A stretch of 64,000 nt of DNA from Tateyamaria sp. Alg231-49 (GTDB lineage: Bacteria > Pseudomonadota > Alphaproteobacteria > Rhodobacterales > Rhodobacteraceae), in assembly GCF_900143535.1 (NCBI RefSeq), contig NZ_FRFA01000017.1, positions 1 through 64,000 on the forward strand, in the 5' to 3' direction. Below, piece by piece: positions 5,773 to 20,736 of the stretch. The translations under genes and the position numbers were made by a program. Each line of letters begins with the position of its first letter. Position 1 is the first letter of the stretch. Under the pieces are notes generated by a model. It saw nothing but the letters and a program-made list of their open reading frames with translations. It was not told the DNA's origin and searched no databases.

Positions 5773-5860
5773 ATTCTAAAGCTTGGCCGTACACTGATTG
5801 AAGTTTAAGTGTTTACGTCCAACCCAAGTCGGAAAATCCGTCAATCTTGAAAGTCATCTT

Positions 5861-6580: not shown

Positions 6581-6632
6581 TCAAGGTTGACTGCGAATTT
6601 CAGTAGCGCAGAACAGTTTGATGCGCCCAGGG

Positions 6633-7450: not shown

Positions 7451-7452
7451 TC

Positions 7453-7551
7453 ACGGCTCGTTTTGAAATAGCGAAATGGATCAGGTTTGTTCATCCAACG
7501 AGGCTACGAAACCACCCTGCCCGTCTCAAGCTAATTTGCTCTGACAGTACC
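7453..7551 (-). pseudogene. Remnant of a second IS6 element (5' end of transposase)
   Basis: This stretch matches the transposase-start end of IS6 copy B (21453-21551) almost base for base. Read on the minus strand it has an outer end GGTACTGTCAGAGCAAATT, then an ATG and the codons MNKPDPFRYFKTSR, and then it breaks off against copy A. So an element of the copy-B type once stood at this edge of the island and was lost, probably by recombination or deletion when copy A arrived. It supports a directly repeated IS6 pair around the island. Confidence 0.85.
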
Positions 7552-7575
7552 CCACCGTCGCCTTCGCGTTGTGTT

Positions 7576-8958
7576 TCAAGAAAGGCTTAGGGTGGTCTGA
7601 CCAGAAATCCGCCCTAATACCAATGCGCTGAGAAGGCCGTTGCCGGACAAATACCCACTGTCGCTGCTTCCAGACACACCGCAGGCTGCACCCCCACCAG
7701 CGAACAACGTGTTAAAAAGCGAACCGTCAGTTCTCAGAACTTGCCCGAATTGGTTCACGCGCAATCCACCTTGCGTATGAAACAGCGCGCCCGTAACCCG
7801 CACGCCATAAAAGGGCTGGGCAAGCGGCGTTTCTTTGAAGCTCCGACCGAACGCGTCAAGCGCTCCAAGCGGAAGGCTCGACAGCGTTTCGCATAACTCC
7901 CTCGCGGGTAAGCCCAAAATATCTGCTAAACCTTCAATACTCTCACTTTTTTTTACGGCACCTACGGCCTCGGCGCGCTTAAAGTCTTCGAATTGCCGCG
8001 CGATCGCGGCGATACGGTCATCAAATATTGCGAAGGCTTCGCCACCGGGCTGGGCTAGCACTGCGCGGGCGGCTTCGGAATATCCCTGGGCTTCATTCCA
8101 AAAACGGTGCCCATCTCGGTTAACTTGAAATCCGCCCTCAGTGATGACCGCCCAAGTGATCAAAATCCCATGCGGATGGGCCACATTTCCGTGCCCTTGA
8201 TACGCGCCTAGATGCTCCGTCTGTGCCCCAATAAGTTCGGCCCAAAGAACGGCCTCTCCACGATTGCCATCATGCCCAAACCAAAGGGCATCTTCGATCT
8301 CTGGCATGTGTTGCGCCACCAGATCGCGATTACCGCCGAAGCCATTGCACGCAAGGATGAGCCGCCCGCAACCGATAGTCTCGACCCCACCATCGGGGCG
8401 TGTGACGCGAACACCAGTGATTTCGCGGTTGTCATAAAACAACGCCTGCGCGCGCCTCTCGCAGATGATATATATCTCAAGCACTTCACAACGCGTGCGT
8501 AAGGCGTCGATGAGTTCCGCGCCTGAGCGTGTGGGAAGCCCGTGCATACGGCGGCGCGAATGACCCGGATAATCGAAATCGGACACAACCGAAAACGGTA
8601 GGCCGTGTGTGTCAGTCAGCCAATCAATAACCTCGGCAGCATGGCCTGCCATCAGATCGACCAACCTTTGATCGTTCTCACCCTTTGCTTTGGCCTGAAT
8701 GTCCTGCGCGAATAAGCCCGCGCTATCCTCGATACCCGCAGCACATTGGACATTGGTGCCTGCTGCCGGGATCAATCCGGCCGACAACGCAGTTGATCCG
8801 CTTGGCACCGCATCGGCTTCGATTAACAGAACCTGCTGGCCTGCTTCATGAGCCGACAAAGCCGCGACCATGCCGCAGGCTCCCGCGCCGATAATCAGGG
8901 TTTCGCAGGTGATGTCATAACTGTCTGGCGGGGGCAGAACCTCAGTCTTTTGTGCCAT
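7576..8958 (-). CDS. FAD-dependent oxidoreductase, fumarate reductase/3-ketosteroid dehydrogenase type
   Basis: A flavoprotein of about 460 residues. The N-terminal Rossmann segment is TLIIGAGACGMVAALSAHEAG, with the acidic end LLIEAD. Family marks include GSTALSAG, ACNGFGGNRDL, VNRDGHRFWNEAQG and the C-terminal LFAGGGAACGV...SGYLSGNGLLSALVLGR FAD segment. This class (fumarate reductase, tricarballylate dehydrogenase, 3-ketosteroid dehydrogenase) adds or removes hydrogen across a C-C bond next to a carbonyl or carboxylate. The start is the ATG at 8958, overlapping the stop of the preceding lyase gene by 17 bases. A start four codons earlier is also in frame. It is last in the six-gene operon. 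Its role may be to saturate or desaturate a dicarboxylate intermediate; this is inference. Confidence 0.82.
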   Translation of the reverse strand: MAQKTEVLPPPDSYDITCETLIIGAGACGMVAALSAHEAGQQVLLIEADAVPSGSTALSAGLIPAAGTNVQCAAGIEDSAGLFAQDIQAKAKGENDQRLVDLMAGHAAEVIDWLTDTHGLPFSVVSDFDYPGHSRRRMHGLPTRSGAELIDALRTRCEVLEIYIICERRAQALFYDNREITGVRVTRPDGGVETIGCGRLILACNGFGGNRDLVAQHMPEIEDALWFGHDGNRGEAVLWAELIGAQTEHLGAYQGHGNVAHPHGILITWAVITEGGFQVNRDGHRFWNEAQGYSEAARAVLAQPGGEAFAIFDDRIAAIARQFEDFKRAEAVGAVKKSESIEGLADILGLPARELCETLSSLPLGALDAFGRSFKETPLAQPFYGVRVTGALFHTQGGLRVNQFGQVLRTDGSLFNTLFAGGGAACGVSGSSDSGYLSGNGLLSALVLGRISGQTTLSLS

Positions 8959-9805
8959 ATCGCACCCCAAGTTCGAGCTGCTCTTTCGTACCGATCACAT
9001 CGTTCAATCCGCCAAAATCAAACATGCGGTCGGCAAATTGTTTGTTGGAGCCATTTGCATGCAGGCTTTGATAATAGTCCCGCGCCGTGCGCGCCAAAGC
9101 CCGAACAATTCCACCCGGGAAAATCACGATTGAGAAGCCTCGCTGTTCAAGATCGCCTGCTCCCGTGATCGGTGTCGAGCCACCTTCGACCATATTGGCC
9201 AAGAGCGGAATGCGGTCCGCGAATTGAGCGCCGATTGCTACCAGCTGCTCGCGCGTCTGTGGCGCCTCGACGAAAAGGATGTCTGCTCCAGCTTCGACAT
9301 AAGCCTCAGCGCGATCCAAAGCGGCCGAGAAGCCTTCAACGGCGATGGCATCCGTGCGGGCGACGATCAGCGTCTCATCGCTGGCGCGGGCATCGGCCAT
9401 AGCAGCGATCTTCCCGGCCATCTCTGTGGTGGAGATCAGAGACTTGTCGGCAAGGTGGCCGCAGCGTTTGGGATAAGTTTGATCCTCTAATTGCAACGCA
9501 GATGCACCCGCACGCTCATAAACACGCATGGTCCGTTGCGCATTCAACGCGTTGCCAAAACCGGTGTCCGCATCAATGATTACAGGCAAAGGCGTTCGGT
9601 CCGCGATCAGCGCCATGGTGTCCGCCATCTCACTGGCAGTGCTGAGCCCAATGTCGGGTCGTCCAAGGCGGGTATAGGCAACTGCAGCGCCACTAAGATA
9701 CAAAGCCTCAAACCCTGCATCGGTCGCCAGGGCTGCGGTCAGGCCATCGTAGACCCCCGGTGCCACGAGTATTTCGTTCTTTTGAAGCCGCCCTTTCAGG
9801 CTCAT
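8942..9805 (-). CDS. Isocitrate lyase/PEP mutase-family C-C lyase (PrpB or dimethylmalate-lyase type)
   Basis: A 287-residue TIM-barrel enzyme that resembles 2-methylisocitrate lyase along its length. Family residues are present: YLSGAAVA, DADTGFG (Asp78 and Asp80, metal site), QLEDQ, the lyase signature KRCGH (catalytic Cys115) and ARTDA. The active-site Cys marks it as a lyase rather than a PEP mutase. Related enzymes cleave 2-methylisocitrate, oxaloacetate or 2,3-dimethylmalate, releasing pyruvate (or succinate) and a short acid. I chose the ATG at 9805: GGAGGG lies 6 bases upstream and the start overlaps the preceding stop as ATGA. With the LeuCD-like pair in the same island, a substituted malate is the likeliest substrate. 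Confidence 0.85.
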   Translation of the reverse strand: MSLKGRLQKNEILVAPGVYDGLTAALATDAGFEALYLSGAAVAYTRLGRPDIGLSTASEMADTMALIADRTPLPVIIDADTGFGNALNAQRTMRVYERAGASALQLEDQTYPKRCGHLADKSLISTTEMAGKIAAMADARASDETLIVARTDAIAVEGFSAALDRAEAYVEAGADILFVEAPQTREQLVAIGAQFADRIPLLANMVEGGSTPITGAGDLEQRGFSIVIFPGGIVRALARTARDYYQSLHANGSNKQFADRMFDFGGLNDVIGTKEQLELGVRYGTKD

Positions 9806-10422
9806 GTCGAACCCTCCAGCCATTTTTGCGCATCGGCACAGATCATCTGATGCGTGACCGTTCCCAGAGACAGAAGCGTGGCATCATGTACATCTTGCTT
9901 GAAGGCCGCGCACCCATCGCTCAGCATAACAGTCTCAATGTTGCGCAGATGTGCGTCGCGCAGGGTTGAAGCCACACCACCGTTGGTAACGATCCCACCG
10001 ACGATAAGGTGATCTATTCCAACCGCGCGCATGATATATTCCAACCGTGTTTGATAGAAGGCGGAATAGGCGACCTTCTCGATCACGAAATCTGCTGGAT
10101 GCAGGGTGTCTACAACCGTGTGGCCGAACGATCCCGGGGCGAAATCCCCTTTGCCAAGGAACGGACGAAGCTCTTTAAGGTGCGGTGCGATCAATGGCGT
10201 CCCGTCGCGGTCCGGCACCAACGTGAATTGAGCTGAGAAGTATCGCCCCCCCTTCGCGTGAAGTGCTGCAACAAGCGGGGCCACGCGACTGGGCAAAGCC
10301 GCAATCGACGCCGCTGATCGGCCCGCGCGTCCGTAGGCCCCTTCGGGATGGATAAAGTCGTTTTGCAAATCAATGGTCAACAACGCTGTGCGGGATAGGT
10401 CCCATGTCTTTGGATCGCTCAT
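9802..10422 (-). CDS. Isochorismatase-fold hydrolase with Gly at the catalytic Cys position
   Basis: A 206-residue protein of the isochorismatase/cysteine-hydrolase superfamily. The usual triad is Asp-Lys-Cys. Asp18 (TIDLQNDF) and Lys116 (EKVAYSAF) are present, but the motif that normally reads TNxCV is T-N-G-G-V, so residue 149 is Gly. Amidases of this fold (nicotinamidase, N-carbamoylsarcosine amidase, maleamate amidase) need that Cys. True isochorismatases such as EntB carry Gly there and hydrolyse a vinyl ether. The protein is therefore either a non-amidase hydrolase or uses another nucleophile. It overlaps hyuA and the lyase gene as ATGA on both sides, so it belongs to the pathway. Confidence 0.83.
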   Translation of the reverse strand: MSDPKTWDLSRTALLTIDLQNDFIHPEGAYGRAGRSAASIAALPSRVAPLVAALHAKGGRYFSAQFTLVPDRDGTPLIAPHLKELRPFLGKGDFAPGSFGHTVVDTLHPADFVIEKVAYSAFYQTRLEYIMRAVGIDHLIVGGIVTNGGVASTLRDAHLRNIETVMLSDGCAAFKQDVHDATLLSLGTVTHQMICADAQKWLEGST

Positions 10423-12482
10423 GACGTGGCCTTCTGAGGTTCAATGATAGTGTTGCCAAATGCGTCTATGCGACCTTGCAAATCAGGTTCGATCAGCACT
10501 GTGGTATCGGGTTGCGTTAGAATTGCAGGGCCTTTGATTACGGCGCCGACAGGTAAGGACAGCCGGTCATAGATGGCCGTGTCGTGCCACTGGTTGCCGA
10601 AATGGACGGGTCGCGTCGAAGTGGGTGTAACATCGCCTCGCGACGTCGGAGCCAAGGTCGCCAAGTCGAACTTGGGGCGTTTGCCGGTCACGGCGCTGCG
10701 CAGGTTCAGAATGCGTCGCACGCCGCCGTTTAACAGCCGCCCAAAGGTTGCCTGATAGGCCGTATCAAACGCCCGTTCGATCTGCGCTTTTGTAGGTGAC
10801 GTGACGGTGCCGCCTGTTACCGTGACATCAATAGGAACCGAGACCGTATGGGTTTGGCCGATATAGGCCATGTCCAACTCAAAGCTCAAAACACGACTGT
10901 CGAACTTCGTTCGCGAGGTTTCAAGCAAGGCCATACCCTGATCGACATGCGACTGCATAAACTCTGCAAGCGCACCCTCGTCCAACGTGCCGACTAGCGT
11001 ATTAATGGTCTGCACAAAGTCCTGCCGCATATCCGCAATCACGCAGCCCATAGCCGAGGTAACGCCAGGGTAGCGTGGCACAATCGCGCGAGAAATGCCT
11101 GTTTCCGCGAGCATGGCTCCGGCATGCAGCGCCCCCCCGCCCCCAAAGGGCATGAAGGCAAACCGTTTCGGATCAAACCCGCGCTCGATCCCGACAAGTC
11201 GGATCGCCCCTGCCATGCGGCTGTTTGCAACCGTCAAAATTGCCTCTGCAGCCTCCAATGTCGTCAGTTCCAAGAGTTTTCCGACGTGTTTATCAATTGC
11301 TTTCGATGCCGCTTCGACATCAAGGCGTTCCAGCTTGCCCCCGATAGGATTGTCCGGATCAATGCGGCCCAACACGACATTGGCGTCAGTCACAGTCGGG
11401 CGGTCATTACCAAGCCCATAGGCGACCGGGCCGGGGTTTGAGCCCGCACTTTCCGGCCCAATGTTCAGCAAACCGCCCTTGTCGACCCACGCAATAGAGC
11501 CTCCACCCGCGCCAATTGTTGTGATCTCGATCATCGGCGTGCGAACAACCATGCCGAAATCGATCGAGGTTTGGGGCGACAGAATTGATTGGCCATCATG
11601 GATCAGAGAGACGTCAAAGCTTGTCCCGCCCATGTCCCCTGTGATGACGTTGTCAAATCCTGCCGACCCGGCAATGTATCCAGCCGCAATCACGCCCGCC
11701 GCTGGTCCAGACAAAGCGGTGCGCACTGGCAGCTGGCAAGCCGTGTCAACCGCCATCACGCCACCATTGGACTGGACGATCATAAATTCGCCGTCAAACC
11801 CACCGTCGCGCAGCGCCGATTCCAACCGGCCCAGATACCCTGATATTTCCGGCTGCAAATAGGCATTCAAGGCGGTCGTCGAAAACCGCTCAAACTCGCG
11901 AATTTCGGGCAAGATTTCGTGGCTTGCCGAGACGTGCGCGTTTGGCCAAACTTCCCGCACCACAGAAACGGCTGCCGCTTCGTTCGCAGGATTGGCATAG
12001 GCGTTGGCAAACAAGATGGCCACCGCCTCGCAACCATCGTCTTGCAACCGTTTGGCCGCAGCACGCACGGCATCCAGGTCAACCTGCGTGCGGATGGAGC
12101 CGTCTGCCAATGTACGCTCTGGCACCTCAAGTCGATTGCGCCGGTCGACAACGGGATCAAAATCTCCGCGCAGACCCCAAGTCCGAGGCCTATCACGCCG
12201 CCGCATTTCAAGCACATCGCGCAAGCCTTCGGTGCAGATAACCCCCGTTTTCGCGCCCTTGCGTTCTAACAATGCGTTTGTGCCAGCCGTCGTGCCATGC
12301 ACAACGACCGAGACTTCCGAAAAATCGTCCACCTCGCGGCCGATCCCGTCGAGAAAACCACCCGACTGATCTGGCCGCGTCGTCGGCACCTTGGCCACTG
12401 TCGCCGTGCCGTCCGTTTCGTTCAAAACAAAAACATCCGTGAATGTGCCGCCCACATCAACACCGATCATACGTTTGCTCAT
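10419..12482 (-). CDS. hyuA: Hydantoinase/oxoprolinase subunit A (ATP-dependent)
   Basis: A 687-residue ASKHA-fold ATPase subunit. The phosphate-binding motif GVDVGGTFTDVFV is at residues 6-18, and HGTTAGTNALLERKGA and GDMGGTSFDVS complete the nucleotide site. HyuA/HyuB-type enzymes (N-methylhydantoinase, 5-oxoprolinase, caprolactamase) couple ATP hydrolysis to opening of a cyclic amide, by phosphorylating the carbonyl. The start is the ATG at 12482, in an ATGA overlap with hyuB; an in-frame ATG six codons earlier lies inside hyuB. Family membership is clear but the ring substrate is not: hydantoin, lactam and imide are all possible. Acetone carboxylase subunits are related too, but this gene has no third-subunit partner here. 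Confidence 0.9.
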   Translation of the reverse strand: MSKRMIGVDVGGTFTDVFVLNETDGTATVAKVPTTRPDQSGGFLDGIGREVDDFSEVSVVVHGTTAGTNALLERKGAKTGVICTEGLRDVLEMRRRDRPRTWGLRGDFDPVVDRRNRLEVPERTLADGSIRTQVDLDAVRAAAKRLQDDGCEAVAILFANAYANPANEAAAVSVVREVWPNAHVSASHEILPEIREFERFSTTALNAYLQPEISGYLGRLESALRDGGFDGEFMIVQSNGGVMAVDTACQLPVRTALSGPAAGVIAAGYIAGSAGFDNVITGDMGGTSFDVSLIHDGQSILSPQTSIDFGMVVRTPMIEITTIGAGGGSIAWVDKGGLLNIGPESAGSNPGPVAYGLGNDRPTVTDANVVLGRIDPDNPIGGKLERLDVEAASKAIDKHVGKLLELTTLEAAEAILTVANSRMAGAIRLVGIERGFDPKRFAFMPFGGGGALHAGAMLAETGISRAIVPRYPGVTSAMGCVIADMRQDFVQTINTLVGTLDEGALAEFMQSHVDQGMALLETSRTKFDSRVLSFELDMAYIGQTHTVSVPIDVTVTGGTVTSPTKAQIERAFDTAYQATFGRLLNGGVRRILNLRSAVTGKRPKFDLATLAPTSRGDVTPTSTRPVHFGNQWHDTAIYDRLSLPVGAVIKGPAILTQPDTTVLIEPDLQGRIDAFGNTIIEPQKATS

Positions 12483-14173
12483 AATGCCACCTCGCGCCAT
12501 GCAGTGCCGTAGGTTTGATCCGCAGCCTCTGAACTCACCAATCCCCGCGCGACGTCCCGCGCAATGTCAGCAGCTGCGCGGGCTCCAACCGGGCCATACC
12601 CGCCACCGCCGGGTGTTTCCAAGCGCACCGCCTGGCCTTGTCGTAGCTTTATCCCGCGCATCTTTGAAACGAGCGGCGGGTTTTCCCAACCCGCGTATTG
12701 TTCATAGGAAAAGACGTTCATAGCACCATCCCCCCCCTCCGCGATGCCTTTCGGGGCGAACCGCCCCCGTTCCCCGAACAGGAAAGCTTCCGCGCCGTTT
12801 TCCTCCAAAACCTCAATCTCATAGATTGCACCGACACCGCCCCGATGTGCGCCATGCCCACCACTGTCAGGCCGCAACCCCCAAGTGCGGAACATCACAG
12901 GATAGGCCGCCTCAAGTATCTCCATTGGTGGGATTGTCGCCGTAGAAATCGGCGCATTGCCGTGGTTCAGGCCGTCACTCTCGACCGATCCACCATGCCC
13001 GCCACCATAGAAACTAAACATCACCCAAGGCTGACCGTTCGCACGTTTGCCTGCGATAGAAAGCGCGTTGATCGTGCCGTAAGCATTGGCCACAACACGG
13101 GTCGGCGCTGCTTTGGCAAAGGCCGAAAACACCACATCAATCATGCGTAAAATCGTTTCGGTATACCCGCCAGTTGGCGCCGGAAATTCCGCCGAGAGCA
13201 ACGAACCTTCGGGCACAATTACGTCAATCGGGCGCATGACGCCTGCGTTCGCGGGCAAGGTCGGGAAAATGTGTTTGACTGCCACATAAGCCGTCGCAAC
13301 CGTTGTCGGCAACGCGATATTCACGGGGCCTGCACATTGCGGGGCCGAGCCGGTGAAATCGAGCGTCATCTGATCGTCTTTGATCTCCAAGGCGACTTTG
13401 ATCGACAGCGGTTCATCCACGATCCCGTCATTGTCGAGAAAATCCTCGGCCTCCCACCGACCATCTGGCAGGTCTTGCAACTCTGATCGCATCAACGCCT
13501 CGGCTCTGTGACCAAGCGCATCAAGCGCAGATGCGACGGTCTGGCCTCCGTATTCATCCAGCAATTCGTCCATCCGTTTGATCCCCAGATCTAGCGCTCC
13601 AAGCTGGCCATTCAGATCGCCCATCGCCGATTGCGGCAGACGCGTGTTCCGCAGCAGAATATCAATGATGTCCTGATTGATTTCACCGGCCCGCGCCAGT
13701 TTGACGGGGGGCAGCACAAACGCCTCTTGAAAAACATCTGTAGCGGCGGGGTTGTAGTTGCCCGGCACCGCGCCGCCCACATCGTGCCAGTGCCCGACCG
13801 AAGCCAGGTAGCAAAACAGTTTTCCATCGCGGTAATAGGGTCGAACCAACCTCATGTCGCTAAGATGCGTTCCCCCGATATGCGCGTCGTTGAAAATGTA
13901 GATATCCCCATCGGCCAGATCGCCATCCTTCGCCGCCTTCCCAATGACGGCTTGAACGGCAAAAGACATAACGCCCACAAAAATCGGCAGACCAGATTTG
14001 CCCTGAACCAGCGTGTCGCCGGATGTTGCGTGATAGAGCCCATGGCTCGCGTCATGCGCTTCTGCGATGATTGGATTGAAGGCCGCGCGAAACAGTGTCG
14101 CGTCCATCTCATCAGCAATTTGCTCCATCCGCCCAGCGAGAACGGACAAGGTTATCGGATCAATATCCGTCAT
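12479..14173 (-). CDS. hyuB: Hydantoinase/oxoprolinase subunit B
   Basis: A 564-residue partner of HyuA. Family marks include DPITLSVLAGRMEQIADEM at the N-terminus, DGDIYIFNDAHIGGTHLSDM, SAPQCAGPVNI and the Gly-rich C-terminal TPGGGGYGP. This subunit completes ring opening after HyuA activates the carbonyl. It is joined by ATGA overlaps to the 4-OT fusion gene upstream and hyuA downstream, so the subunits should be made in step. Gene order (B before A) is common for catabolic hyu clusters. The substrate cannot be told from sequence. Confidence 0.9.
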   Translation of the reverse strand: MTDIDPITLSVLAGRMEQIADEMDATLFRAAFNPIIAEAHDASHGLYHATSGDTLVQGKSGLPIFVGVMSFAVQAVIGKAAKDGDLADGDIYIFNDAHIGGTHLSDMRLVRPYYRDGKLFCYLASVGHWHDVGGAVPGNYNPAATDVFQEAFVLPPVKLARAGEINQDIIDILLRNTRLPQSAMGDLNGQLGALDLGIKRMDELLDEYGGQTVASALDALGHRAEALMRSELQDLPDGRWEAEDFLDNDGIVDEPLSIKVALEIKDDQMTLDFTGSAPQCAGPVNIALPTTVATAYVAVKHIFPTLPANAGVMRPIDVIVPEGSLLSAEFPAPTGGYTETILRMIDVVFSAFAKAAPTRVVANAYGTINALSIAGKRANGQPWVMFSFYGGGHGGSVESDGLNHGNAPISTATIPPMEILEAAYPVMFRTWGLRPDSGGHGAHRGGVGAIYEIEVLEENGAEAFLFGERGRFAPKGIAEGGDGAMNVFSYEQYAGWENPPLVSKMRGIKLRQGQAVRLETPGGGGYGPVGARAAADIARDVARGLVSSEAADQTYGTAWREVAL

Positions 14174-14736
14174 GCGTTGGCCCTTGTTTCAGCGATGTCA
14201 TTCCAGACATCTTGTTTGGTGAGTGTTTGACCCACGACTTCAAAACGATCAATGAACCTGATGCCATCAAAAGTGGTTCCATTTGGCCATTCGCCCGAAA
14301 GCGTGCCGTGACAATAGACGATGGCCGCACAACCCGCACTTTGCATGGTGTCGAAGCCATCATAGGTTTTGGTGACAAATTTATATCGGGGCGCCGCCCA
14401 GTCGATCAGCTGCTGCAACTGATGCATAGGCCCCGTGCCCGGGAATTTCATAACAAACCCGTTGGCAAGGAAGCCTTGCGCAAGATCGATGTCTCGCGCC
14501 TCCATCGCTGAAAGGAAAGACCGCACCAAAACCGCCGGATCAGGCTTGGCGGGTGCGGATGTGCGTGTTGTTCGGCCACGGTAGTAATTCTCGGACGGCA
14601 TGTCATGGATCATCACCGTCACCAATTCTGGTGTGGCAGGAACAACAAGGCGCACGGCATCTGTGAGCGCCTCGCCCAAGCGCCGCTTTGCGTCTTCATC
14701 ATAGCCCTCCAAGACGTGCATCTCAACAATCGGCAT
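14170..14736 (-). CDS. 4-oxalocrotonate tautomerase-like domain fused to an NTF2/SnoaL-like domain
   Basis: A 188-residue two-domain protein. Residues 1-60 are a 4-OT-type tautomerase: the start Met is followed by Pro (MPIVEMHVLEG), so the processed N-terminal Pro can act as catalytic base, and DEDAKRRLGEALTDAVR and ITVTI-like VTVMIHDMP follow the family pattern. Residues about 70-185 look like an NTF2/SnoaL fold (SFLSAMEARDIDLAQGFLANGFVMKFPG, and GIRFIDRFEVVGQTLTKQDVW). The ATG at 14736 is chosen because GGGAGGG lies 6 bases upstream and because Pro must be residue 2. It is the first gene of the six-gene operon. It may isomerise an enol intermediate, but the reaction is unknown. Confidence 0.78.
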   Translation of the reverse strand: MPIVEMHVLEGYDEDAKRRLGEALTDAVRLVVPATPELVTVMIHDMPSENYYRGRTTRTSAPAKPDPAVLVRSFLSAMEARDIDLAQGFLANGFVMKFPGTGPMHQLQQLIDWAAPRYKFVTKTYDGFDTMQSAGCAAIVYCHGTLSGEWPNGTTFDGIRFIDRFEVVGQTLTKQDVWNDIAETRANA

Positions 14737-14768
14737 GTGACCCTCCCAAACGCATTTGTCTGCTTCAT

Positions 14769-14785
14769 AATACAACTTGTGTATT
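14769..14785. promoter_or_regulatory. Candidate operator of the divergent island promoter
   Basis: AATACAACTTGTGTATT is an inverted repeat (AATACA / TGTATT, 5-base centre) in the gap between the 4-OT fusion gene and the divergent HutC-type regulator. AT-rich palindromes of this type are bound by HutC-subfamily GntR proteins. One site here could control both arms of the island. Binding is inferred. Confidence 0.5.
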
Positions 14786-14882
14786 TTCGTTAAGTCAACT
14801 TTTTCCTTGCAAAACGACGGCCGGTTGGTTTTCTTTATATCAGCGGCACCGTTCAGGTGACGTTTGGGAAGGACATTCAGCG

Positions 14883-15701
14883 TTGGAAGTCACCGGTTCA
14901 ACCACTTTGCCAGAGGGCGCAAAAGCACGCCGCGTGTACCTGTCTCTGCACGATCAGATCTCAGACGGAAGGTTGTGCGATGGAGAAACTTTGCCCGGGG
15001 AACAAAGGTTGGCTGAGACCTACTCTGTATCACGCGTCACCGTGCGCCGGGCCTTGGACGCGTTGAATGAAGCTGGTCTTATCGAGAAGCGTGTTGGCAG
15101 TGGAACGACAGTGCGCAGCAAGTCTTTGGCCGAAAAACGTGCGGCAATGAACTTCAACACGTTGATGCCGCAACTGGTTGAGATGGGACAATCGACGACG
15201 GCACGGCTCTTGTCGTTCTCCTACAGCCTACCGCCGGACTACGTGGCACATGCGATGGGGCTGGACCCTTCAGACAAAGCGCAAATAGCGACCCGTGTGC
15301 GATTGGCCGACGGGGTTCCGTTCTCACACCTCACGACCTATGTGCCGACGCGCATCGCGCAGAACTATTCGGAAAATGACCTGGCAACGACGCCGCTCTT
15401 CAAGCTTTTGGAACGCAGCGGGGTGCAAATCGACGCCGCGCACCAATCAGTGTCAGCCAGCCTCGCCGGACCGGAAGTGGCTGAAGCTTTGAGCATCGCC
15501 GAGGGGTCCGCTCTACTGTCTCTAAAGCGTGTGGTGCGCGATGTGGATGGTAACGGCGTTGAATACCTGTCCGGGCTATATCGCCCTGATATGTTCAGCT
15601 TAGAGATGCCACTTGCCCGCGTTGGGGATGGTGTTGGGCGCCACTGGGAACCCGCCATCGGGCAGACCGATCAAGACCTGCAAGAGCAATCCCGCTCATG
15701 A
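14883..15701 (+). CDS. GntR-family transcriptional regulator, HutC type (UTRA domain)
   Basis: A regulator of about 272 residues. The N-terminal winged helix-turn-helix (VYLSLHDQISDGRL, PGEQRLAETYSVSRVTVRRALDALNEAGLIEKR) is followed by a UTRA ligand-binding domain (FSHLTTYVPTRIA, LKRVVRDVDGNGVEYLSGLYRPDMF). I chose the TTG at 14883: GGAAGGA lies about 9 bases upstream, and the frame upstream of it runs through the promoter region. The stop overlaps the LeuC-like start (ATGA), so regulator and hydratase are co-translated. It probably represses both divergent operons until the substrate or an intermediate binds. Confidence 0.85.
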   Translation: MEVTGSTTLPEGAKARRVYLSLHDQISDGRLCDGETLPGEQRLAETYSVSRVTVRRALDALNEAGLIEKRVGSGTTVRSKSLAEKRAAMNFNTLMPQLVEMGQSTTARLLSFSYSLPPDYVAHAMGLDPSDKAQIATRVRLADGVPFSHLTTYVPTRIAQNYSENDLATTPLFKLLERSGVQIDAAHQSVSASLAGPEVAEALSIAEGSALLSLKRVVRDVDGNGVEYLSGLYRPDMFSLEMPLARVGDGVGRHWEPAIGQTDQDLQEQSRS

Positions 15702-17104
15702 GCAAACCGCAAACCCTTCTTGATAAGCTCTGGTCAGCGCACGAAATTCTCAAGCGCAAAGACGGTGTGTCTCTTTTGTGGGTAGACCGACATCTCGTGC
15801 ATGAGGGCTCTCACCACGCATTTGCCAACATCACCGCGCGCGGGGCATCCGTTTCGCACCCAGACAAAACCTTTGCCGTCGTCGATCACTACGCGCCAAC
15901 ACGGGATCGGGCGCACATTGCGGATCCGCAGATCGCAAGGATGATTGACACACTACGCCGAAATGCCGGAGAGCATAAGCTTCGTTTATTCGACCTGCAT
16001 GACCCGGCACAGGGTATTGTGCATGTTGTCGGACCAGAACAGGGCCTGACCTTGCCCGGGCTTTTGATCAACTGCGGCGACAGCCACACCTCGACCCATG
16101 GTGCGTTCGGGGCTTTGGCGTTTGGCATCGGCGCAACCGAAGTGGCGCATATATTGGCCACGCAAACAATCTGGCAGAAAAAGCCTAAAGCGATGCGGAT
16201 TACGGTCGACGGAGACCTCGGAGCAGGTGTCACTGCGAAGGACATCGCGCTCAATTGGATTGCCCAGCTGGGAGCAGGTAGCGCGCAGGGTCATGCGGTG
16301 GAATACGCCGGCAGCGCAATTAGCGCCTTGTCGATGGAGGGCCGTATGACACTGTGCAATCTGTCCATCGAGGGCGGCGCGCGTTTCGGGATGATCGCTC
16401 CGGACGAGGTCACCAAGGCCTATGTCAAAGATCGCGCTTATGCGCCAAAAGGCGATGATTGGGCAGCCGCTGTGAAAGCGTGGGACGCACTGACATCCGA
16501 CCAAGACGCCGCGTTTGAGATTGATGTCCACCTAGATGCCGCAGAAATCGCGCCCACTGTCACATGGGGAACCAGCCCCGAGCAGGCCTTGCCCATAGAT
16601 GCCACCCTTCCTAACCCTGCAGAGATGGGCAAACAAATGGCTGAGACGGCGTCTGAGGCGCTCGCTTATATGGGGTTAACTGCTGGACAAAGCCTTGCAG
16701 GGACACCGGTTGATCAGGTTTTCATCGGGTCTTGTACCAACGGCCGGATTGAAGATTTGCGCGCCGCCGCCGCAGTGATGGCGGGCCGCCGCGCCAAAGT
16801 GCCGGGACTGGTATCACCAGGGTCACAAATGATCAAAACGCAGGCTGAACAAGAGGGTCTAGACAAAGTCTTCACCGATGCTGGGCTTGAATGGGCTGCG
16901 TCCGGTTGCTCTATGTGCGTCGGAATGAACGGAGATCTTGTGGGCAGTGGCAAGCGTTGTGCCTCCTCGACCAACCGCAATTTCAAAGGCCGTCAGGGAC
17001 GCGGGTCTCGCACCCATTTAATGTCACCTGTGATGGTGGCGGCGGCTGCGGTCACCGGCCGGATTTGTGACGTGCGCCCGATGCTGCAAGAGCGATACAT
17101 CTGA
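15698..17104 (+). CDS. 3-isopropylmalate dehydratase large subunit-like hydratase (LeuC-like)
   Basis: A 468-residue aconitase-superfamily protein, as long as E. coli LeuC and similar throughout. The three 4Fe-4S cluster cysteines are present: Cys346 in GSCTNGR, and Cys404 and Cys407 in GCSMCVGMN. CGDSHTSTHGAFG and RCASSTNRNFKGRQGRG are also intact. With the LeuD-like protein it should hydrate or dehydrate a substituted maleate/malate. E. coli-type LeuCD also acts on citraconate, and dimethylmaleate hydratase is a relative. Its place between a HutC regulator and a TRAP transporter, opposite a PrpB-like lyase, argues for catabolism. A leucine-pathway role cannot be fully excluded. Confidence 0.87.
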   Translation: MSKPQTLLDKLWSAHEILKRKDGVSLLWVDRHLVHEGSHHAFANITARGASVSHPDKTFAVVDHYAPTRDRAHIADPQIARMIDTLRRNAGEHKLRLFDLHDPAQGIVHVVGPEQGLTLPGLLINCGDSHTSTHGAFGALAFGIGATEVAHILATQTIWQKKPKAMRITVDGDLGAGVTAKDIALNWIAQLGAGSAQGHAVEYAGSAISALSMEGRMTLCNLSIEGGARFGMIAPDEVTKAYVKDRAYAPKGDDWAAAVKAWDALTSDQDAAFEIDVHLDAAEIAPTVTWGTSPEQALPIDATLPNPAEMGKQMAETASEALAYMGLTAGQSLAGTPVDQVFIGSCTNGRIEDLRAAAAVMAGRRAKVPGLVSPGSQMIKTQAEQEGLDKVFTDAGLEWAASGCSMCVGMNGDLVGSGKRCASSTNRNFKGRQGRGSRTHLMSPVMVAAAAVTGRICDVRPMLQERYI

Positions 17105-17781
17105 TGGCGGGGTGGCACAGACATGATGGGCTGGCAGCGGCATTGCCGCTTGCAAATGTGGATACGGATCAATTGATCCCAGCCCGTTTCATGTCGGTGC
17201 CGCGCTCGGAAGGGTATGCCGACTACCTTTTGCACGACGTTCGCAGAGACGACACCGGAGCGTTGCGCTCTGATTTCAACTTAAACAACACACCGCAAGC
17301 AAGTGTTCTCATAGCTGGTGCAAATTTTGGCGGTGGTTCATCGCGGGAGGCGGCGGTTTATGCGCTTGTCGATGCTGGGTTCCGCGCCGTGTTCTCGCCA
17401 AGTTTCGGCGACATTTTCGCAAGCAATGCTATTAATAACAGCCTGTTACCTGCGCGCATTGACGACGAGACGTATACGGCGTTGCTGGCTCTGGTTGGTC
17501 AATCAACATGTCCTGTCCGGATTGATCTAAAAGCCGGGCGTGCCACGTTTGACAACAAGGTTGTAGACTTCGCGCTTGACGACACATGGCGCACGAAACT
17601 CATCAACGGATGGGACGACATCGATCTAACGCAACAACATGCCCCGGAGATCGCGAAATTTGGAGATATTTACGCTCAAGCAGCGCCGTGGGCAGCCCCT
17701 CGGTACCTGATTGAAACACGCAGCATCTGCTGCACAAACCGACATCTGGGAGGTGTCATACAAAAAGGGCGAAAGGTCTAA
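17104..17781 (+). CDS. 3-isopropylmalate dehydratase small subunit-like (LeuD-like)
   Basis: The 225-residue swivel-domain partner of the LeuC-like protein, sharing one base with its stop (TGATG). VDTDQLIPARFM, GANFGGGSSREAA and PSFGDIFASNAINNSLLP match LeuD. The active-site stretch differs: E. coli-type LeuD reads GCGSSREHAPWAL, while this has GGGSSREAAVYAL. The catalytic Ser-Ser-Arg is kept but His-Ala-Pro-Trp has become Ala-Ala-Val-Tyr, which may alter substrate choice. It is about 24 residues longer than E. coli LeuD, with a C-terminal tail containing two cysteines. Confidence 0.87.
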   Translation: MAGWHRHDGLAAALPLANVDTDQLIPARFMSVPRSEGYADYLLHDVRRDDTGALRSDFNLNNTPQASVLIAGANFGGGSSREAAVYALVDAGFRAVFSPSFGDIFASNAINNSLLPARIDDETYTALLALVGQSTCPVRIDLKAGRATFDNKVVDFALDDTWRTKLINGWDDIDLTQQHAPEIAKFGDIYAQAAPWAAPRYLIETRSICCTNRHLGGVIQKGRKV

Positions 17782-17811
17782 TTTCGCTTACATCAAATGG
17801 GAGAACATCAA

Positions 17812-18825
17812 ATGAAGATGACTATATTGGGCGGGATTCTCGCCAGCTCGACATTGGTAGCAAACGTCGCGCACTCCGAAGAGACGATCTCGGCGGTCCA
17901 CGCATTTCCTGAAAGCTTGATCTACACAAAAAGCTTTTTGTCGTTTGTCGACAAAGTAAACGAGGCTGGTGAGGGTATTGTACAGATTGACGTGCGCGGC
18001 GGACCAGAAGCTATCGGCATGTTCCAGCAGCCAGATGCCGTACGCGATGGTATCGTTGACATGGTTTACACGCCTGGCTCGTTCTATGGGGGTGCACTTC
18101 CAGAAAAAGACGCGATGGTTGCGTCAAACTTGACGGCTGTAGAGACCCGTATGAACGGTGGCATTGAGCTGATCGACCAAATCCACCAAGAGAAGATGGG
18201 ATTGAAATATCTCGGCTGGTTCGACAGTGGCGTATGTTACAACCTTTGGACGCGGAACGAGCCGACATTTGATGCTGAGGGCAACCTTGAGGTCGACGGC
18301 CTCAAACTGCGCGGCAACAACGTCTATAACGCCTTCTTCACCAACTACCTGAACGCGCAAGTCATCGACCTACCAACCGGCGAGGTTTATTCAGCGCTGC
18401 AACGCGGTGTGGTGGATGCAACGGGCTGGACACAAATTGGTCTGATCGATCTGAAATGGAACGAATTCCTGAACTACCGGATCGAGCCTTGTTTCTTCTC
18501 AACTGACCTTGGTGTGATCGTGAACAACGAGAAATGGGATTCACTGTCTGACGAGGCCCGTAAGATCGTTCAAGACGTGGCCATTCAACACGAGAAAGAC
18601 AGCGTCGCCGCATTGCGCGCCAAGCGCGACGAAGACTTTGAAGCGTTGGATGCGGCTGGCATGAAAGTTGTATCCCTCGAAGGCGACGCCAAGGCGAAAT
18701 ACCTCGCCGCTGCCCGTGAAAAAACATGGGAACGTATGAAATCCGTGATGTCCGAGCAACCGGGCGGCACAGACAACTACGATCGCCTGCTAGAGCTCTT
18801 CTACGATCTCAACGCAGCCAAATGA
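17812..18825 (+). CDS. dctP: TRAP transporter substrate-binding protein (DctP family)
   Basis: A 337-residue periplasmic binding protein of a TRAP transporter. It has an N-terminal signal peptide (MKMTILGGILASSTLV, likely cut after AHS). The family core includes LKLRGNNVYNAFF, which contains the Arg that usually binds the ligand carboxylate, and LPTGEVYSALQRGVVDATGW. The ATG at 17812 is chosen because GGGAGA lies 8 bases upstream; an ATG five codons earlier lacks a ribosome site. The Arg favours an organic acid ligand. It probably imports the substrate, or an acid intermediate, of the island pathway. Confidence 0.9.
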   Translation: MKMTILGGILASSTLVANVAHSEETISAVHAFPESLIYTKSFLSFVDKVNEAGEGIVQIDVRGGPEAIGMFQQPDAVRDGIVDMVYTPGSFYGGALPEKDAMVASNLTAVETRMNGGIELIDQIHQEKMGLKYLGWFDSGVCYNLWTRNEPTFDAEGNLEVDGLKLRGNNVYNAFFTNYLNAQVIDLPTGEVYSALQRGVVDATGWTQIGLIDLKWNEFLNYRIEPCFFSTDLGVIVNNEKWDSLSDEARKIVQDVAIQHEKDSVAALRAKRDEDFEALDAAGMKVVSLEGDAKAKYLAAAREKTWERMKSVMSEQPGGTDNYDRLLELFYDLNAAK

Positions 18826-18832
18826 AATGTGA

Positions 18833-18857
18833 CGGGCTGGTCGTGATTGCCAGCCCG
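18833..18857 (+). terminator. Hairpin after dctP
   Basis: A perfect 8-base stem (CGGGCTGG / CCAGCCCG) with a 9-base loop lies 8 bases after the dctP stop and is followed by ACTTTTC. It may act as a partial terminator or mRNA end stabiliser, giving more binding protein than membrane subunits. Confidence 0.65.
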
Positions 18858-18880
18858 ACTTTTCATTAAGCGATAATCAG

Positions 18881-19387
18881 ATGCCGATGATCTCCAAAGC
18901 CCTCGCGGTTCTTGTCAACCTTCTCGCAATAATCGCAGGCGCGACACTGGTGTGGTTGATGATCTCCGTCATAACCTCGGTGCTGATGCGAAACGCAGGA
19001 TTACAGCCCTTTGCATGGCTCTTCACCTCGGCGGAATACGGACTTCTTTATATGACCATGCTCGGTGCGCCTTGGCTGGTGCGCGAGAAGGGTCATGTCC
19101 ACATCGAATTGGTCACCGCCGCGCTGCCTGACGGAGCACGCCGCATTGTCAGCCGCATTGTGGCAATCGCCTGCGTCTTGGTCTGCTTGATCCTTGCGTG
19201 GAAAGGCGTCGAGTTGTTCCTCAAAAACATCGAACGCGGCGACTACGATACCCGCGCATATTATTACCCTCGCTGGATGTTGACGATCGCCTTCCCAATT
19301 AGCTTTGGCTTGATGGCAATCGAATTCTCGCGGTTCATTTTTGGCAGCGAGCTGATGCACTCTGGCGAAGCAGGAATCCACGAATAA
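18881..19387 (+). CDS. dctQ: TRAP transporter small permease (DctQ family)
   Basis: A 168-residue membrane protein with four predicted transmembrane segments (about residues 8-33, 45-65, 85-110 and 125-150). It carries the DctQ pattern WLFTSAEYGLLYMTMLGAPWLVREKGHVHIEL. It bridges the binding protein and the large DctM channel. It overlaps the dctM start by one base (TAATG), so the two are coupled. Sodium-gradient drive is typical of the family. Confidence 0.88.
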   Translation: MPMISKALAVLVNLLAIIAGATLVWLMISVITSVLMRNAGLQPFAWLFTSAEYGLLYMTMLGAPWLVREKGHVHIELVTAALPDGARRIVSRIVAIACVLVCLILAWKGVELFLKNIERGDYDTRAYYYPRWMLTIAFPISFGLMAIEFSRFIFGSELMHSGEAGIHE

Positions 19388-20694
19388 TGGAATGGTTTGA
19401 AGCGCTTGCCCTACTGGTCGGTTCGATCATCTTTTTGATGGCTTTGGGCATGCCGGTCGCCTTGGCCTTCCTCGCTGCAAACATCTTGGGCGCTTATATC
19501 TTCATGGGCGGAGAACGAGGCGTCGGACAGCTTCTCAACAACGGCCTCGGCTCCCTGACGAAATATGCGTTGGTACCTATTCCGCTGTTTCTCTTGATGG
19601 GCGAGATTTTCTTTCACACCGGGCTTGGCGGGCGGATGTTTAACGCCATCGACAAACTGCTTGGGCGGCTGCCGGGCCGCCTAAGCTATGTCACCGTCTT
19701 GGGCGGAACCGCATTTTCCACTCTTTCAGGTTCCTCCATGGGATCGACGGCATTGCTTGGCACCCTGATGGTCCCAGAGATGGGGCGGCGCGGCTACAAA
19801 CCCCATATGAGCATTGGCCCGATCCTTGGAACCGGTGGTTTGGCGATCATCATACCGCCCTCTGCCTTGGCCGTGCTGTTGGCCACGCTCGCGCAGATTG
19901 ATGTGGCCGCTTTGTTGATCGCAGGTGTCATCCCCGGTCTAATCCTTGCCAGCTTCTACATCGCAACAATCTGGGTTCAGACCAAAATCGACCCTACAGC
20001 AGCCCCGGCCTATGACGTCGAGCCAATGACATTGGGTCAGAAACTGAAAACGCTCTTCACCGAAGTTGTCCCAATGGTTGGCGTTATGGTCGTCATCATT
20101 GTGCTGATGATCCAAGGCTTTGTGACCCCGTCCGAGGCTGCGGCTTTCGGCGCTCTTGGCGTGCTAATCCTTGCCGCCGTCTTCCGATGTCTGACAATCG
20201 AGGCGATGCGCAAGTCCATTACCGGAGCCCTGCGGGTGACCCTGATGGCCTATTTGATCGTCTTCGGATCAGCGACGTTTAGCCAGCTTCTGGCCTTCTC
20301 TGGGGCTTCAAGGGGATTGGTAAACTGGGCGACCTCTTTTGATCTCGCCCCGCTGGCTATGCTTCTGGTTATGTTCGCCGTGCTGCTGCTCCTCGGTATG
20401 TTCATGGAGCAAATCTCAATGATGTTGCTCACCGTGCCGATCTTTTTCCCATTGGCGCAGACCTTGGGCTTCGACCCAATTTGGTTTGGCCTCATCATGT
20501 TGTTGGCCCTTGAGATCAGCTTTACGACACCGCCCTTTGGCTTGCTGCTATTCGTAATGAAAGGTGTGGCCCCACAAGGCACAACAATGAAGCAGATCTA
20601 CACGTCCGCCTTTCCATTTATCGGATGCTCGCTGGTGTTAGTTGCGCTTTTGATCGCGATGCCACAACTCGCACTTTGGCTTCCGTCCCTGTAA
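19387..20694 (+). CDS. dctM: TRAP transporter large permease (DctM family)
   Basis: A 435-residue integral membrane protein with 11-12 hydrophobic segments, the usual DctM length. Family marks include GMPVALAFLAANI, PLFLLMGEIFFHTGLGGRMF, GGTAFSTLSGSSMGSTALLG and the C-terminal ISFTTPPFGLLLFVMKGVAP. It forms the transport channel with DctQ. It is the last gene of the plus arm of the island. IS6 copy B begins 42 bases after its stop, and no strong terminator is visible between them. Confidence 0.9.
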   Translation: MEWFEALALLVGSIIFLMALGMPVALAFLAANILGAYIFMGGERGVGQLLNNGLGSLTKYALVPIPLFLLMGEIFFHTGLGGRMFNAIDKLLGRLPGRLSYVTVLGGTAFSTLSGSSMGSTALLGTLMVPEMGRRGYKPHMSIGPILGTGGLAIIIPPSALAVLLATLAQIDVAALLIAGVIPGLILASFYIATIWVQTKIDPTAAPAYDVEPMTLGQKLKTLFTEVVPMVGVMVVIIVLMIQGFVTPSEAAAFGALGVLILAAVFRCLTIEAMRKSITGALRVTLMAYLIVFGSATFSQLLAFSGASRGLVNWATSFDLAPLAMLLVMFAVLLLLGMFMEQISMMLLTVPIFFPLAQTLGFDPIWFGLIMLLALEISFTTPPFGLLLFVMKGVAPQGTTMKQIYTSAFPFIGCSLVLVALLIAMPQLALWLPSL

Positions 20695-20736
20695 CCCAGA
20701 AGTAGAAGCATGATCAGATCAATAAGCTGAAGTAGC

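Follow-up and report, generated by a model that had tools for sequence, protein, structure and literature searches.

In the lower half of the 2-methylcitrate cycle the enzymes are PrpD/AcnD and PrpB, and nicotinate fermentation ends with dimethylmaleate hydratase DmdAB and dimethylmalate lyase; the petal death protein is an alkylmalate lyase. NicF and NicE form the maleamate branch of aerobic nicotinate degradation. TcuA dehydrogenates tricarballylate, TRAP carriers usually have carboxylate ligands, an Arg is typical of homoaconitase small subunits, and true isochorismatases also have Gly at the position of the amidohydrolase Cys. According to passages of PMC8453981, HyuAB-family enzymes open many rings, and the ATP motifs and metal ligands of CapAB given there were used as reference features.

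The window, i.e. the whole 64,000-nucleotide stretch of DNA analysed, holds twelve genes at 7576-20694, an island of two divergent arms flanked on either side by IS6-type ends (Table 1). One such end, TCTGACAGTACC, lies at 7540-7551 and the other, GGTGCTGTCAGA, starts from 20737, and both coincide with the island limits (7551 and 20736) drawn in a preliminary description. The families named there for a catabolic island (hyuA, hyuB, a 4-OT fusion, the isochorismatase-fold protein, the lyase, a flavoprotein, LeuC/LeuD, HutC and TRAP) were all recovered as open frames in place and matched in Pfam and NCBIfam. Between the divergent arms lies one conserved operator-like palindrome, common to the loci of relatives and the only match of at least 13 to the consensus within the 64-kb window. 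The palindrome agrees with co-regulation of the arms, on which the preliminary description depends, and the UTRA regulator would control both.

Table 1 Features of the island and its borders in the window.
Feature	Coordinates	Strand	Remarks
Remnant of IS6-type element end, island's left border	7459..7551		By-eye reading against 21459-21551
IS6/IS240-type transposase, left of island	6686..7393	-	Open frame and family match
FAD_binding_2 / flavocytochrome-c (fumarate-reductase)-type dehydrogenase	7576..8970	-	Likely start ATG at 8958; Pfam, NCBIfam
PrpB-like (2-methylisocitrate lyase-like) C-C lyase	8942..9823	-	PEP-mutase/ICL family, KRCGH motif
Isochorismatase-fold hydrolase	9802..10422	-	Asp18, Lys116; Gly149 at catalytic-Cys position
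HyuA, ATP-binding large subunit, hydantoinase/oxoprolinase/caprolactamase family	10419..12500	-	Family match, invariant motifs
HyuB, metal-binding small subunit	12479..14173	-	Family match, invariant metal ligands
4-oxalocrotonate-tautomerase-like domain fused to weakly matching SnoaL-like domain	14170..14736	-	Pfam/NCBIfam
Operator-like palindrome (predicted)	14757..14774	+	13/18 to family consensus TGTATTATTTGTAATACA
GntR/UTRA (HutC-type) regulator	14868..15701	+	Family match; start codon approximate
LeuC-type aconitase-family large subunit	15698..17104	+	Family match
LeuD-type small subunit	17104..17781	+	Family match
TRAP solute-binding protein DctP	17797..18825	+	Family match
TRAP small permease DctQ	18881..19387	+	Family match
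TRAP large permease DctM	19387..20694	+	Family match
IS6/IS240-type transposase, right of island	20790..21494	-	Element begins at 20737

The occurrence of the gene set was assessed in an even sample of 390 genomes of the order, using the isochorismatase-fold gene as marker, which was present in 62 genomes (about one in six) from 36 genera. Within 14-20 kb of the marker in the 61 other marker-bearing genomes, LeuC was found in 61/61 (8 of them divergent, at 35-46% identity), HyuA and HyuB in 60, LeuD in 60, the PrpB-type lyase in 58, the GntR/UTRA regulator in 58 (low-identity matches included), the FAD protein in 54 and the tautomerase fusion in 53. All 12 genes were kept in 47 of the 61 named loci that had enough flank, out of 80 fetched. 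Such retention of the core genes, each in 58 to 61 of the 61 genomes compared, makes the island far more than a chance assembly. LeuCD and the lyase are regular members of the set, and the preliminary description passes its own test on this point. In Azospirillum (L039) the cluster genes all lie on one strand, and HyuAB is absent from two loci (L094 and L155) that do have the isochorismatase. Inspection by eye of the 30 neighbour groups that recur most often revealed no gene for tetrapyrrole degradation.

HyuA and HyuB have the hallmarks of HyuAB/CapAB enzymes. The DxGGT phosphate motif, the second Asp and GxxPGP are present in HyuA (D15, D289 and GxxPGP invariant in 70/70), as is the Asp-His-Asp-His metal site in HyuB (D41, H103, D106 and H128, invariant in 70/70). 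Caprolactamase proper was rejected, with NCBIfam scores of 503 (CapA) and 302 bits (CapB) below the cut-off of 1000.

The isochorismatase-fold protein departs from the Asp-Lys-Cys triad of cysteine amidohydrolases of this fold: Asp18 and Lys116 are invariant, and the position where the Cys of relatives such as RutB aligns is Gly in 71/71 family members. The preliminary description was right about the missing Cys (Gly149), but on the family alignment its absence is an invariant family trait, no defect of the single copy in the window. The solved structures closest in predicted fold were the amide hydrolases TrtA, RutB and BiuH, with PhzD only at rank 37; by sequence the putative isochorismatase 3kl2, which has Cys at that position, came first, then RutB and TrtA, with PhzD far down. 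We propose the protein as a candidate alkylmaleamate amidohydrolase; disubstituted maleamates of this type are easily hydrolysed.

The lyase carries the K[KR]CGH loop (K119-R120-C121-G122-H123) and acidic metal residues of PrpB and other ICL/PEPM lyases; K119, C121, H123, D84, D86 and E113 occur in 67/67 members, and residue 120 is Arg in 60 and Lys in 7. Its best NCBIfam model was prpB (TIGR02317), at 291 bits against a cut-off of 354, which excluded 2-methylisocitrate lyase proper (the PrpB equivalog). Dimethylmalate lyase was rejected as the closest solved relative, 2-methylisocitrate lyases and the CPEP-mutase entry 4iqd being on top of both the sequence and the fold list. In the profile search the petal death protein (246.0 bits) and E. 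coli PrpB (246.6 bits) scored nearly alike, with equally high TM-scores, and single-sequence and fragment searches placed 2-methylisocitrate lyases above dimethylmalate lyase and the petal death protein.

LeuC and LeuD belong to the LeuCD isopropylmalate isomerase family by NCBIfam score (626 bits, cut-off 560, and 150 bits, cut-off 116). The Fe-S Cys candidates C346, C404 and C407 of LeuC were invariant in 17/17, and the homoaconitase-type Arg was not found in LeuD. Two other LeuC copies (52% and 50%) occur in the genome, so a role in leucine synthesis is unnecessary for the island LeuC, and the island pair was rejected as the leucine-biosynthesis copy. Read by eye, one of the other copies lies near a leuB-like frame. 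LeuCD is proposed as the candidate hydratase of a substituted maleate. Loci that lack LeuCD or the lyase contain genes for similar chemistry: in Neorhizobium and Roseomonas LeuCD is absent and a protein annotated MmgE/PrpD present, and a CoA-transferase and HMG-CoA-lyase-like pair occurs in all 3 of the 61 loci that have no lyase, compared with 1 of the 58 that have one. The HMG-CoA-lyase-like substitute would fit a methyl-bearing tertiary alcohol.

Among the accessory proteins, the tautomerase fusion keeps Pro at residue 2 in at least 90% of 58 members, and its SnoaL-like half is below the Pfam cut-off; we would guess that it shifts an exocyclic double bond. The FAD protein gave a score to tricarballylate dehydrogenase TcuA as well, with all of its listed NCBIfam matches falling short of their cut-offs; by analogy with TcuA it would dehydrogenate a saturated, succinate-type (dihydro) acid to the maleate-type acid.

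A subset of genomes couples glutarate genes to the operon. Of 118 loci whose sequence extends at least 1.5 kb beyond the FAD gene, 12 have a glutaryl-CoA dehydrogenase (GCDH) frame overlapping the FAD gene end by 8-14 bases, followed in 11 by a succinate-glutarate CoA-transferase-like gene; in the twelfth (L144) the contig ends 431 bases further on, and two of the linked loci, L081 and L154, belong to the same genome. Across the even sample of the order the linkage occurred in only 3/61, all from one genus. Against the PDB, the L181 dehydrogenase gave 548-587 bits to named GCDH entries, the top match being named only acyl-CoA dehydrogenase and the next six GCDH, its closest relatives. In NCBIfam the best model of the linked dehydrogenase was FadE, below cut-off, and no GCDH cut-off was reached; the best model for the L181 and Tistrella transferases was succinate-glutarate CoA-transferase (533 bits, cut-off 750). 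Tistrella has the pair inside the cluster, between the isochorismatase and LeuC; a close lyase is lacking within 12 kb, and its plasmid has only a 38% relative. On the HyuAB tree the linkage takes 6 Fitch changes, which may be too many because some loci (e.g. L142, L168, L169) are too short in flank. GCDH and CoA-transferase homologues lie elsewhere in the window's own genome, and GCDH was found in 376/390 genomes of the order, so its mere presence says nothing. Within the genus showing linkage, two genomes (G299, G253) have the same dehydrogenase gene with the cluster marker absent, and two more (G140, G082) showed no copy other than the operon-coupled one; the coupled dehydrogenase may therefore be the host's own gene. 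Together with the HMG-CoA-lyase-like substitutes, the coupled genes point to a methyl-malate-type intermediate cleaved to pyruvate and glutarate (or glutaryl-CoA).

Hematinic acid, or the dihydro form of it, would best fit imide opening by HyuAB and cleavage to pyruvate and glutarate; a neutral alkylmaleimide would fit less well. We give somewhat less than an even chance to the operon pair serving hematinic acid (3-(2-carboxyethyl)-4-methylmaleimide), an imide derived from chlorophyll, heme and bilins, and probably also the dihydro form. The TRAP carrier would import hematinic acid, HyuAB would use ATP to open the imide ring, forming a disubstituted maleamate, and the Cys-less enzyme would release ammonia, the substrate's own cis-carboxylate replacing the Cys nucleophile. 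The product would be 2-(2-carboxyethyl)-3-methylmaleate, a homologue of 2-methyl-cis-aconitate with one more carbon. LeuCD, or a PrpD-family protein in some other bacteria, would hydrate it to the homologue of 2-methylisocitrate, which the PrpB-like lyase would split into pyruvate and glutarate, the latter passing to the CoA-transferase and then to glutaryl-CoA dehydrogenase. The order of steps in the preliminary description (ring-imide, substituted maleate, malate, pyruvate plus acid) is retained as the best reading; the imides named there (dimethyl- and ethylmethyl-maleimide, citraconimide) are not, since the glutarate-activating genes coupled in the subset make an acidic, propionate-bearing imide likelier. 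Passages of PMC7318184 report that hematinic acid arises on chlorophyll oxidation and occurs in leaves, in which maleimides went undetected, and excerpts of PMC11442138 and PMC8131568 describe it as a bacterial heme product of ChuS.

That neutral imides nevertheless take this route, giving pyruvate and propionate, butyrate or acetate, appears quite unlikely to us. The core genes would be identical, LeuCD-type enzymes and a PrpB-like lyase would suit alkylmaleates and alkylmalates, and the lyase, related to dimethylmalate lyase, is as near to the petal death protein as to E. coli PrpB in the profile search; yet the single-sequence and fragment rankings argue otherwise, the coupled glutarate genes are left without explanation, and neutral imides lack the carboxylate that TRAP carriers usually bind. 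Another cyclic amide could feed the same maleate-malate-cleavage module, whether a demethyl homologue giving glyoxylate and glutarate (homoisocitrate-like), a hydroxylated pyridine or pyrrole product, or a hydantoin or lactam. We consider this unlikely, although the family opens many rings (in passages of PMC8453981), L094 pairs its isochorismatase with a flavin hydroxylase, and a glycerate-kinase-like frame, read by eye, lies nearby in 7 loci (HyuAB being identical in L056/L122 and in L076/L151). Neighbours of Rieske, phenol-hydroxylase-type or hydroxynicotinate-reductase kind occur in L055, L085 and L036, but outside the cluster's run of genes, and the HMG-CoA-lyase-like substitute would suit a methyl-bearing tertiary alcohol.

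The invariant Gly also agrees with an isochorismatase-fold enzyme that is no amidase but, in the manner of true isochorismatases, acts by protonation and hydrolysis on an enol ether or enamine, HyuAB opening an unsaturated lactam and the enamine yielding ammonia; with amide hydrolases leading by fold, 3kl2, RutB and TrtA by sequence, and PhzD low in both, this seems improbable. Divergent orientation would suit an imide/hydantoin arm and a LeuCD/TRAP arm that are functionally unrelated and travel together by chance, an idea made scarcely credible by their persistence across 36 genera, the one-strand arrangement in Azospirillum and the palindrome between them.

Returning to hematinic acid, the full reading is possible but doubtful: bacteria would consume hematinic and dihydrohematinic acid from chlorophyll, heme and bilins through an ATP-driven imide opener, a Cys-less, carboxylate-assisted amidase and a homologated methylcitrate half, yielding pyruvate and glutarate, a trait common in the marine Roseobacter group, on plasmids and IS-bounded islands. 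No description of such an imide-opening-and-cleavage route was found in the literature searched, in agreement with the preliminary description, which knew of no pathway with this gene set, and none of the matches listed (titles and abstract openings) described bacterial consumption of mono-pyrrolic imides. Chlorophyll is made and degraded at the 10^12 kg scale per year (passages of PMC7318184). Its oxidation leaves mono-pyrrolic imides, and tetrapyrrole carbon and nitrogen may end in this operon, a gene set common to many marine bacteria. If true, a HyuAB subgroup and a fixed Cys-to-Gly change in the amidase fold would each gain a function.

Set against known systems, HyuA and HyuB share with CapAB, HyuAB and OplAB (caprolactamase, ATP-dependent hydantoinase, 5-oxoprolinase) the two-subunit layout and conserved ATP motifs and metal ligands, but score half (CapA) and about 30% (CapB) of the caprolactamase cut-offs, and the proposed substrate is another. 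As in the NicF/NicE branch, an isochorismatase-fold enzyme for a maleamate would stand beside a diacid-processing enzyme; here Gly replaces Cys throughout, and hydration and cleavage of the product would take the place of isomerisation to fumarate. Nicotinate fermentation likewise pairs an aconitase-family hydratase with an ICL/PEPM-superfamily lyase on an alkylated maleate, whereas in the window's cluster the subunits are of the bacterial LeuCD type, the lyase is PrpB-like, the preceding steps belong to HyuAB and a Cys-less isochorismatase-fold protein, and there are no pyridine-side genes. Some of the genomes couple the CoA-transferase and glutaryl-CoA dehydrogenase of glutarate catabolism to the operon, and there the pair would be the outlet of an imide pathway. 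The 2-methylcitrate cycle also hydrates a methyl-substituted cis-enedioate for a PrpB-family lyase to cleave to pyruvate and a dicarboxylate, and a PrpD-family protein replaces LeuCD in two relatives of the cluster; the route proposed here would differ in a substrate one carbon longer, in glutarate instead of succinate, in a LeuCD-type hydratase and in an acid derived from an imide.

Every gene of the 12-gene divergent island had a name consistent with its Pfam and NCBIfam matches, and the frames agreed with the genes listed in the preliminary description. In the minus-strand arm, each gene overlapped the next one. The edges coincided with IS6-type ends at 7551 and 20737, a border that suggests IS-mediated transfer. 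IS240-type transposases occupied both flanks and the right flank also carried a resolvase-family recombinase. The terminal sequence of other IS6 members, TTTGCAACAG, gave no match. The bordering elements comprised two different IS6/IS240-type transposases and a remnant end, and the frame of a large serine recombinase (resolvase and recombinase domains) started within an IS6-type element. Left of the IS elements lay a second cluster encoding an Asp/Glu/hydantoin-racemase-type protein, a branched-chain-type ABC transporter and a GntR/FCD regulator. An ABC transporter of similar kind preceded the HyuAB genes of Neorhizobium (L038).

Positions of the island genes and neighbouring features in the window
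Feature	Position	Strand	Remark
Second cluster	307-6580		left of IS elements
Asp/Glu-racemase-type gene	307-984		second cluster
ABC transporter SBP	4443-5630		second cluster
IS6/IS240-type elements	6686-7551, 20737-21551		bordering island
FAD-dependent dehydrogenase	7576-8970	minus	
PrpB-like lyase	8942-9823	minus	
Isochorismatase-fold protein	9802-10422	minus	
HyuA	10419-12500	minus	
HyuB	12479-14173	minus	
Tautomerase fusion	14170-14736	minus	
Palindrome site	14757-14774		13/18 match
GntR/UTRA regulator	ends 15701	plus	
LeuC	15698-17104	plus	
LeuD	17104-17781	plus	
TRAP carrier	17797-20694	plus	
Large serine recombinase	21487-23010		

The 12-gene unit is real and widespread. We searched 390 genomes of the order for the isochorismatase-fold protein (E cut 1e-25) and detected this marker in 62 of them, the own genome counted, across 36/139 genera. 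All 62 matches stood at E 5.3e-78 or better, so far below the cut that the marker forms a discrete family. Carriers included Sulfitobacter pontiacus plasmids, Marivita, Ruegeria, Roseovarius and Roseibium. A Sulfitobacter sp. S190 plasmid (L036, 16900-28588) additionally bore molybdenum hydroxylase, 6-hydroxynicotinate reductase and UPF0280 genes some genes beyond the cluster. The preliminary description had called for a genome-neighbourhood search, and tblastn of 14.3 to 19.6 kb around the marker in all 61 other genomes found the core set kept: isochorismatase and LeuC (61/61 each), HyuA, HyuB and LeuD (60/61 each), lyase (58/61), FAD protein (54/61) and tautomerase (53/61), with the regulator (58/61) and TRAP M, P and Q (49/61, 48/61 and 44/61) as upper bounds that take in low-identity matches. 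LeuC was divergent (35-46% identity) in 8/61 genomes (L089-L091, L093, L094, L096, L097 and L100).

Among loci L104-L183, the best 80 of at least 419 relatives, the complete set occurred in 47 of the 61 with sufficient flank (19/80 short-flank loci left out); at least 11 genomes are shared with the order set (L040-L100), so the two are not independent. One of these 61, L155 (Pseudooceanicola nanhaiensis), retained the isochorismatase and lacked HyuAB, LeuCD and lyase. Outside the order, single-strand arrangements were observed in Azospirillum (ABC carrier, lyase, HyuB, HyuA, isochorismatase, FAD protein, LeuC, LeuD) and Paraburkholderia (ABC carrier, LeuC, LeuD, HyuB, HyuA, isochorismatase, lyase). 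A phylum-wide sample gave a marker match in 8/398 genomes, four of them outside the family, where frame listings showed lyase, HyuB, HyuA, isochorismatase and LeuC (L194); lyase, HyuAB, isochorismatase, FAD-type protein and LeuD (L195); HyuAB and isochorismatase (L196); and HyuA, isochorismatase, FAD-type protein and a distant LeuC (L197).

Comparison of 51 intergenic regions, from tautomerase start to regulator start, gave an 18-base palindrome, TGTATTATTTGTAATACA, matched at 13 or more positions in 42/51 regions versus 15/1020 mononucleotide shuffles, a test that is partly circular because the consensus derives from the same regions, some nearly identical. No second match of at least 13/18 was found anywhere in the 64 kb window, and a single predicted operator between the arms would fit their joint control.

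Catalytic residues were strongly conserved. All tested ATP and metal residues, those reported for caprolactamase in the available text of PMC8453981, were kept in HyuA and HyuB (70/70). LeuC had three invariant Cys (C346, C404 and C407; 17/17 aligned), and the lyase motif was kept in 67/67, except for R120K in seven. The solved structures nearest to the lyase were 2-methylisocitrate lyases and a CPEP-mutase entry; by profile, petal death protein (246.0 bits) was level with E. coli PrpB (246.6 bits), and its TM-scores were no lower. The isochorismatase-fold protein kept Asp18 and Lys116, and the absence of its Cys, noted from the start, was borne out by Gly149 in 71/71. This position aligned to a Cys of RutB, which we take to be catalytic. 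The predicted structure (mean pLDDT 86) was nearest to the amide-cleaving triuret hydrolase, RutB and biuret hydrolase, with PhzD at rank 37, whilst by sequence the first hit was 3kl2, a putative isochorismatase that does have Cys there, followed by RutB. Given the invariant Gly and the amide-hydrolase neighbours by fold, the substitution looks like an ancient fixed change within an amidase lineage. The amidase step could be substrate-assisted: in a disubstituted maleamate, the cis-carboxylate would attack the amide of the same molecule.

Where core genes were missing, a chemically similar gene is found instead. Neorhizobium and Roseomonas lacked LeuCD and carried a protein annotated MmgE/PrpD, for which the Neorhizobium copy matched zero NCBIfam models at 1e-10. 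The lyase was absent from 3/61 genomes (L089, L094 and L100), all three of which encoded a CaiB-type CoA-transferase and an HMG-CoA-lyase-like protein near divergent LeuCD; among the 58 lyase-bearing genomes, only L090 had this pair. The chance of all three falling within these 4/61 is 4 in 35,990 if genomes are independent, which is not quite so. HMG-CoA lyase cleaves methyl-bearing tertiary beta-hydroxyacyl-CoA, and its pairing with lyase absence therefore supports a methyl-malate-type intermediate cleaved to pyruvate and an acyl part. The HyuAB-less L094 variant (705-14093) combined an isochorismatase family member, flavin hydroxylase, aldehyde dehydrogenase and arylmalonate-decarboxylase/EutA-like protein with LeuCD, CoA-transferase and the HMG-CoA-lyase-like protein; its substrate may be a hydroxylated aromatic or pyridine.

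Clustering of flanking frames surfaced an acyl-CoA dehydrogenase and a CoA-transferase. The former (L181 copy) was a glutaryl-CoA dehydrogenase by PDB comparison, below every NCBIfam cut-off; the top model for the latter was succinate-glutarate CoA-transferase, also under its cut-off. In 12/118 loci able to show linkage (L069, L074, L081, L128, L144, L146, L147, L149, L154, L164, L170 and L181; L081 and L154 are one genome), the dehydrogenase frame started 8-14 bases before the FAD gene end in the same direction, an overlap as in putative translational coupling. The CoA-transferase followed in 11/12, the exception (L144) being a 6.2 kb contig ending there. The evenly sampled order set supplied 3/12 linked loci, all from one genus. 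On a HyuAB tree of 136 distinct rows (11 linked), linkage required six changes, with some nodes weakly supported and some unlinked rows having short flanks; the tree merges 12 identical-row pairs and covers loci with nearly complete HyuA and HyuB, so that L144 and L094, among others, are absent from it. Tistrella had a homologous pair (71% and 51% identity) between isochorismatase and LeuC, and no close lyase was seen at that locus. Homologues of both glutarate genes lay elsewhere in the own genome; genome-wide co-occurrence of glutaryl-CoA dehydrogenase was uninformative, as 376/390 genomes carry it.

Several other roles were weighed. Leucine synthesis by the island LeuCD was rejected, given two further LeuC copies in the own genome. 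A third LeuCD pair of this genome (L191, C27:92000-103000) adjoined an alpha/beta-hydrolase-like frame and a TRAP carrier and is possibly a further catabolic hydratase. For the lyase, an ordinary PrpB role in propionate metabolism was unsupported because the gene accompanies HyuAB in nearly all relatives, despite no second lyase relative in the own genome at E <= 1e-5. A hydantoin racemase link was rejected, the racemase-type gene being part of the separate ABC-transporter cluster; near the marker, a racemase-type match occurred in 1/61 genomes, weakly (26%), and in Neorhizobium at 28%. The own genome also held a further HyuAB pair (L192, C21:8000-22000), with adjoining frames read as aminotransferase and maleate isomerase.

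A glyoxylate outlet through a neighbour read as glycerate-kinase-like was dismissed: it occurred in seven loci, including two pairs sharing identical HyuAB, and in those read (L055, L056 and L122) was directed against the adjoining LeuD. OplAB, as presented in the available text of PMC11033972, together with the glutarate genes, prompted 2-piperidone/5-aminovalerate as a candidate substrate. This was set aside since LeuCD and lyase would be left idle, and no aminotransferase or semialdehyde dehydrogenase was seen in the 12-gene cluster.

The pathway is very probably catabolic and of the type first guessed, with hematinic acid (3-carboxyethyl-4-methylmaleimide) a more likely substrate than alkyl maleimides. 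A PrpB-like cut would yield glutarate and pyruvate, so the precursor would be a maleate with methyl and carboxyethyl groups, whose imide, by structural deduction, is hematinic acid. We tentatively regard it as the best single substrate, with confidence a little short of even. Rings one double bond poorer, as ring D of chlorophyll, would give the dihydro form of hematinic acid, which could explain why a TcuA-like FAD protein is part of the set. The latter was not found by tblastn near the marker in 7/61 genomes. In the available text of PMC7318184, hematinic acid was detected in leaves in amounts similar to propentdyopents, with maleimides undetected there, and chlorophyll oxidation in vitro also yielded it; available portions of PMC11442138 and PMC8131568 describe its release from heme by ChuS. 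Among the papers listed by literature searches, mostly outside subscription journals, none describes the pathway by title or abstract start, and those listed for the gene set were unrelated, which leaves novelty unproven. The nearest study there concerns bacterial transformation of sedimentary porphyrins to single-pyrrole products (PMC8669743).
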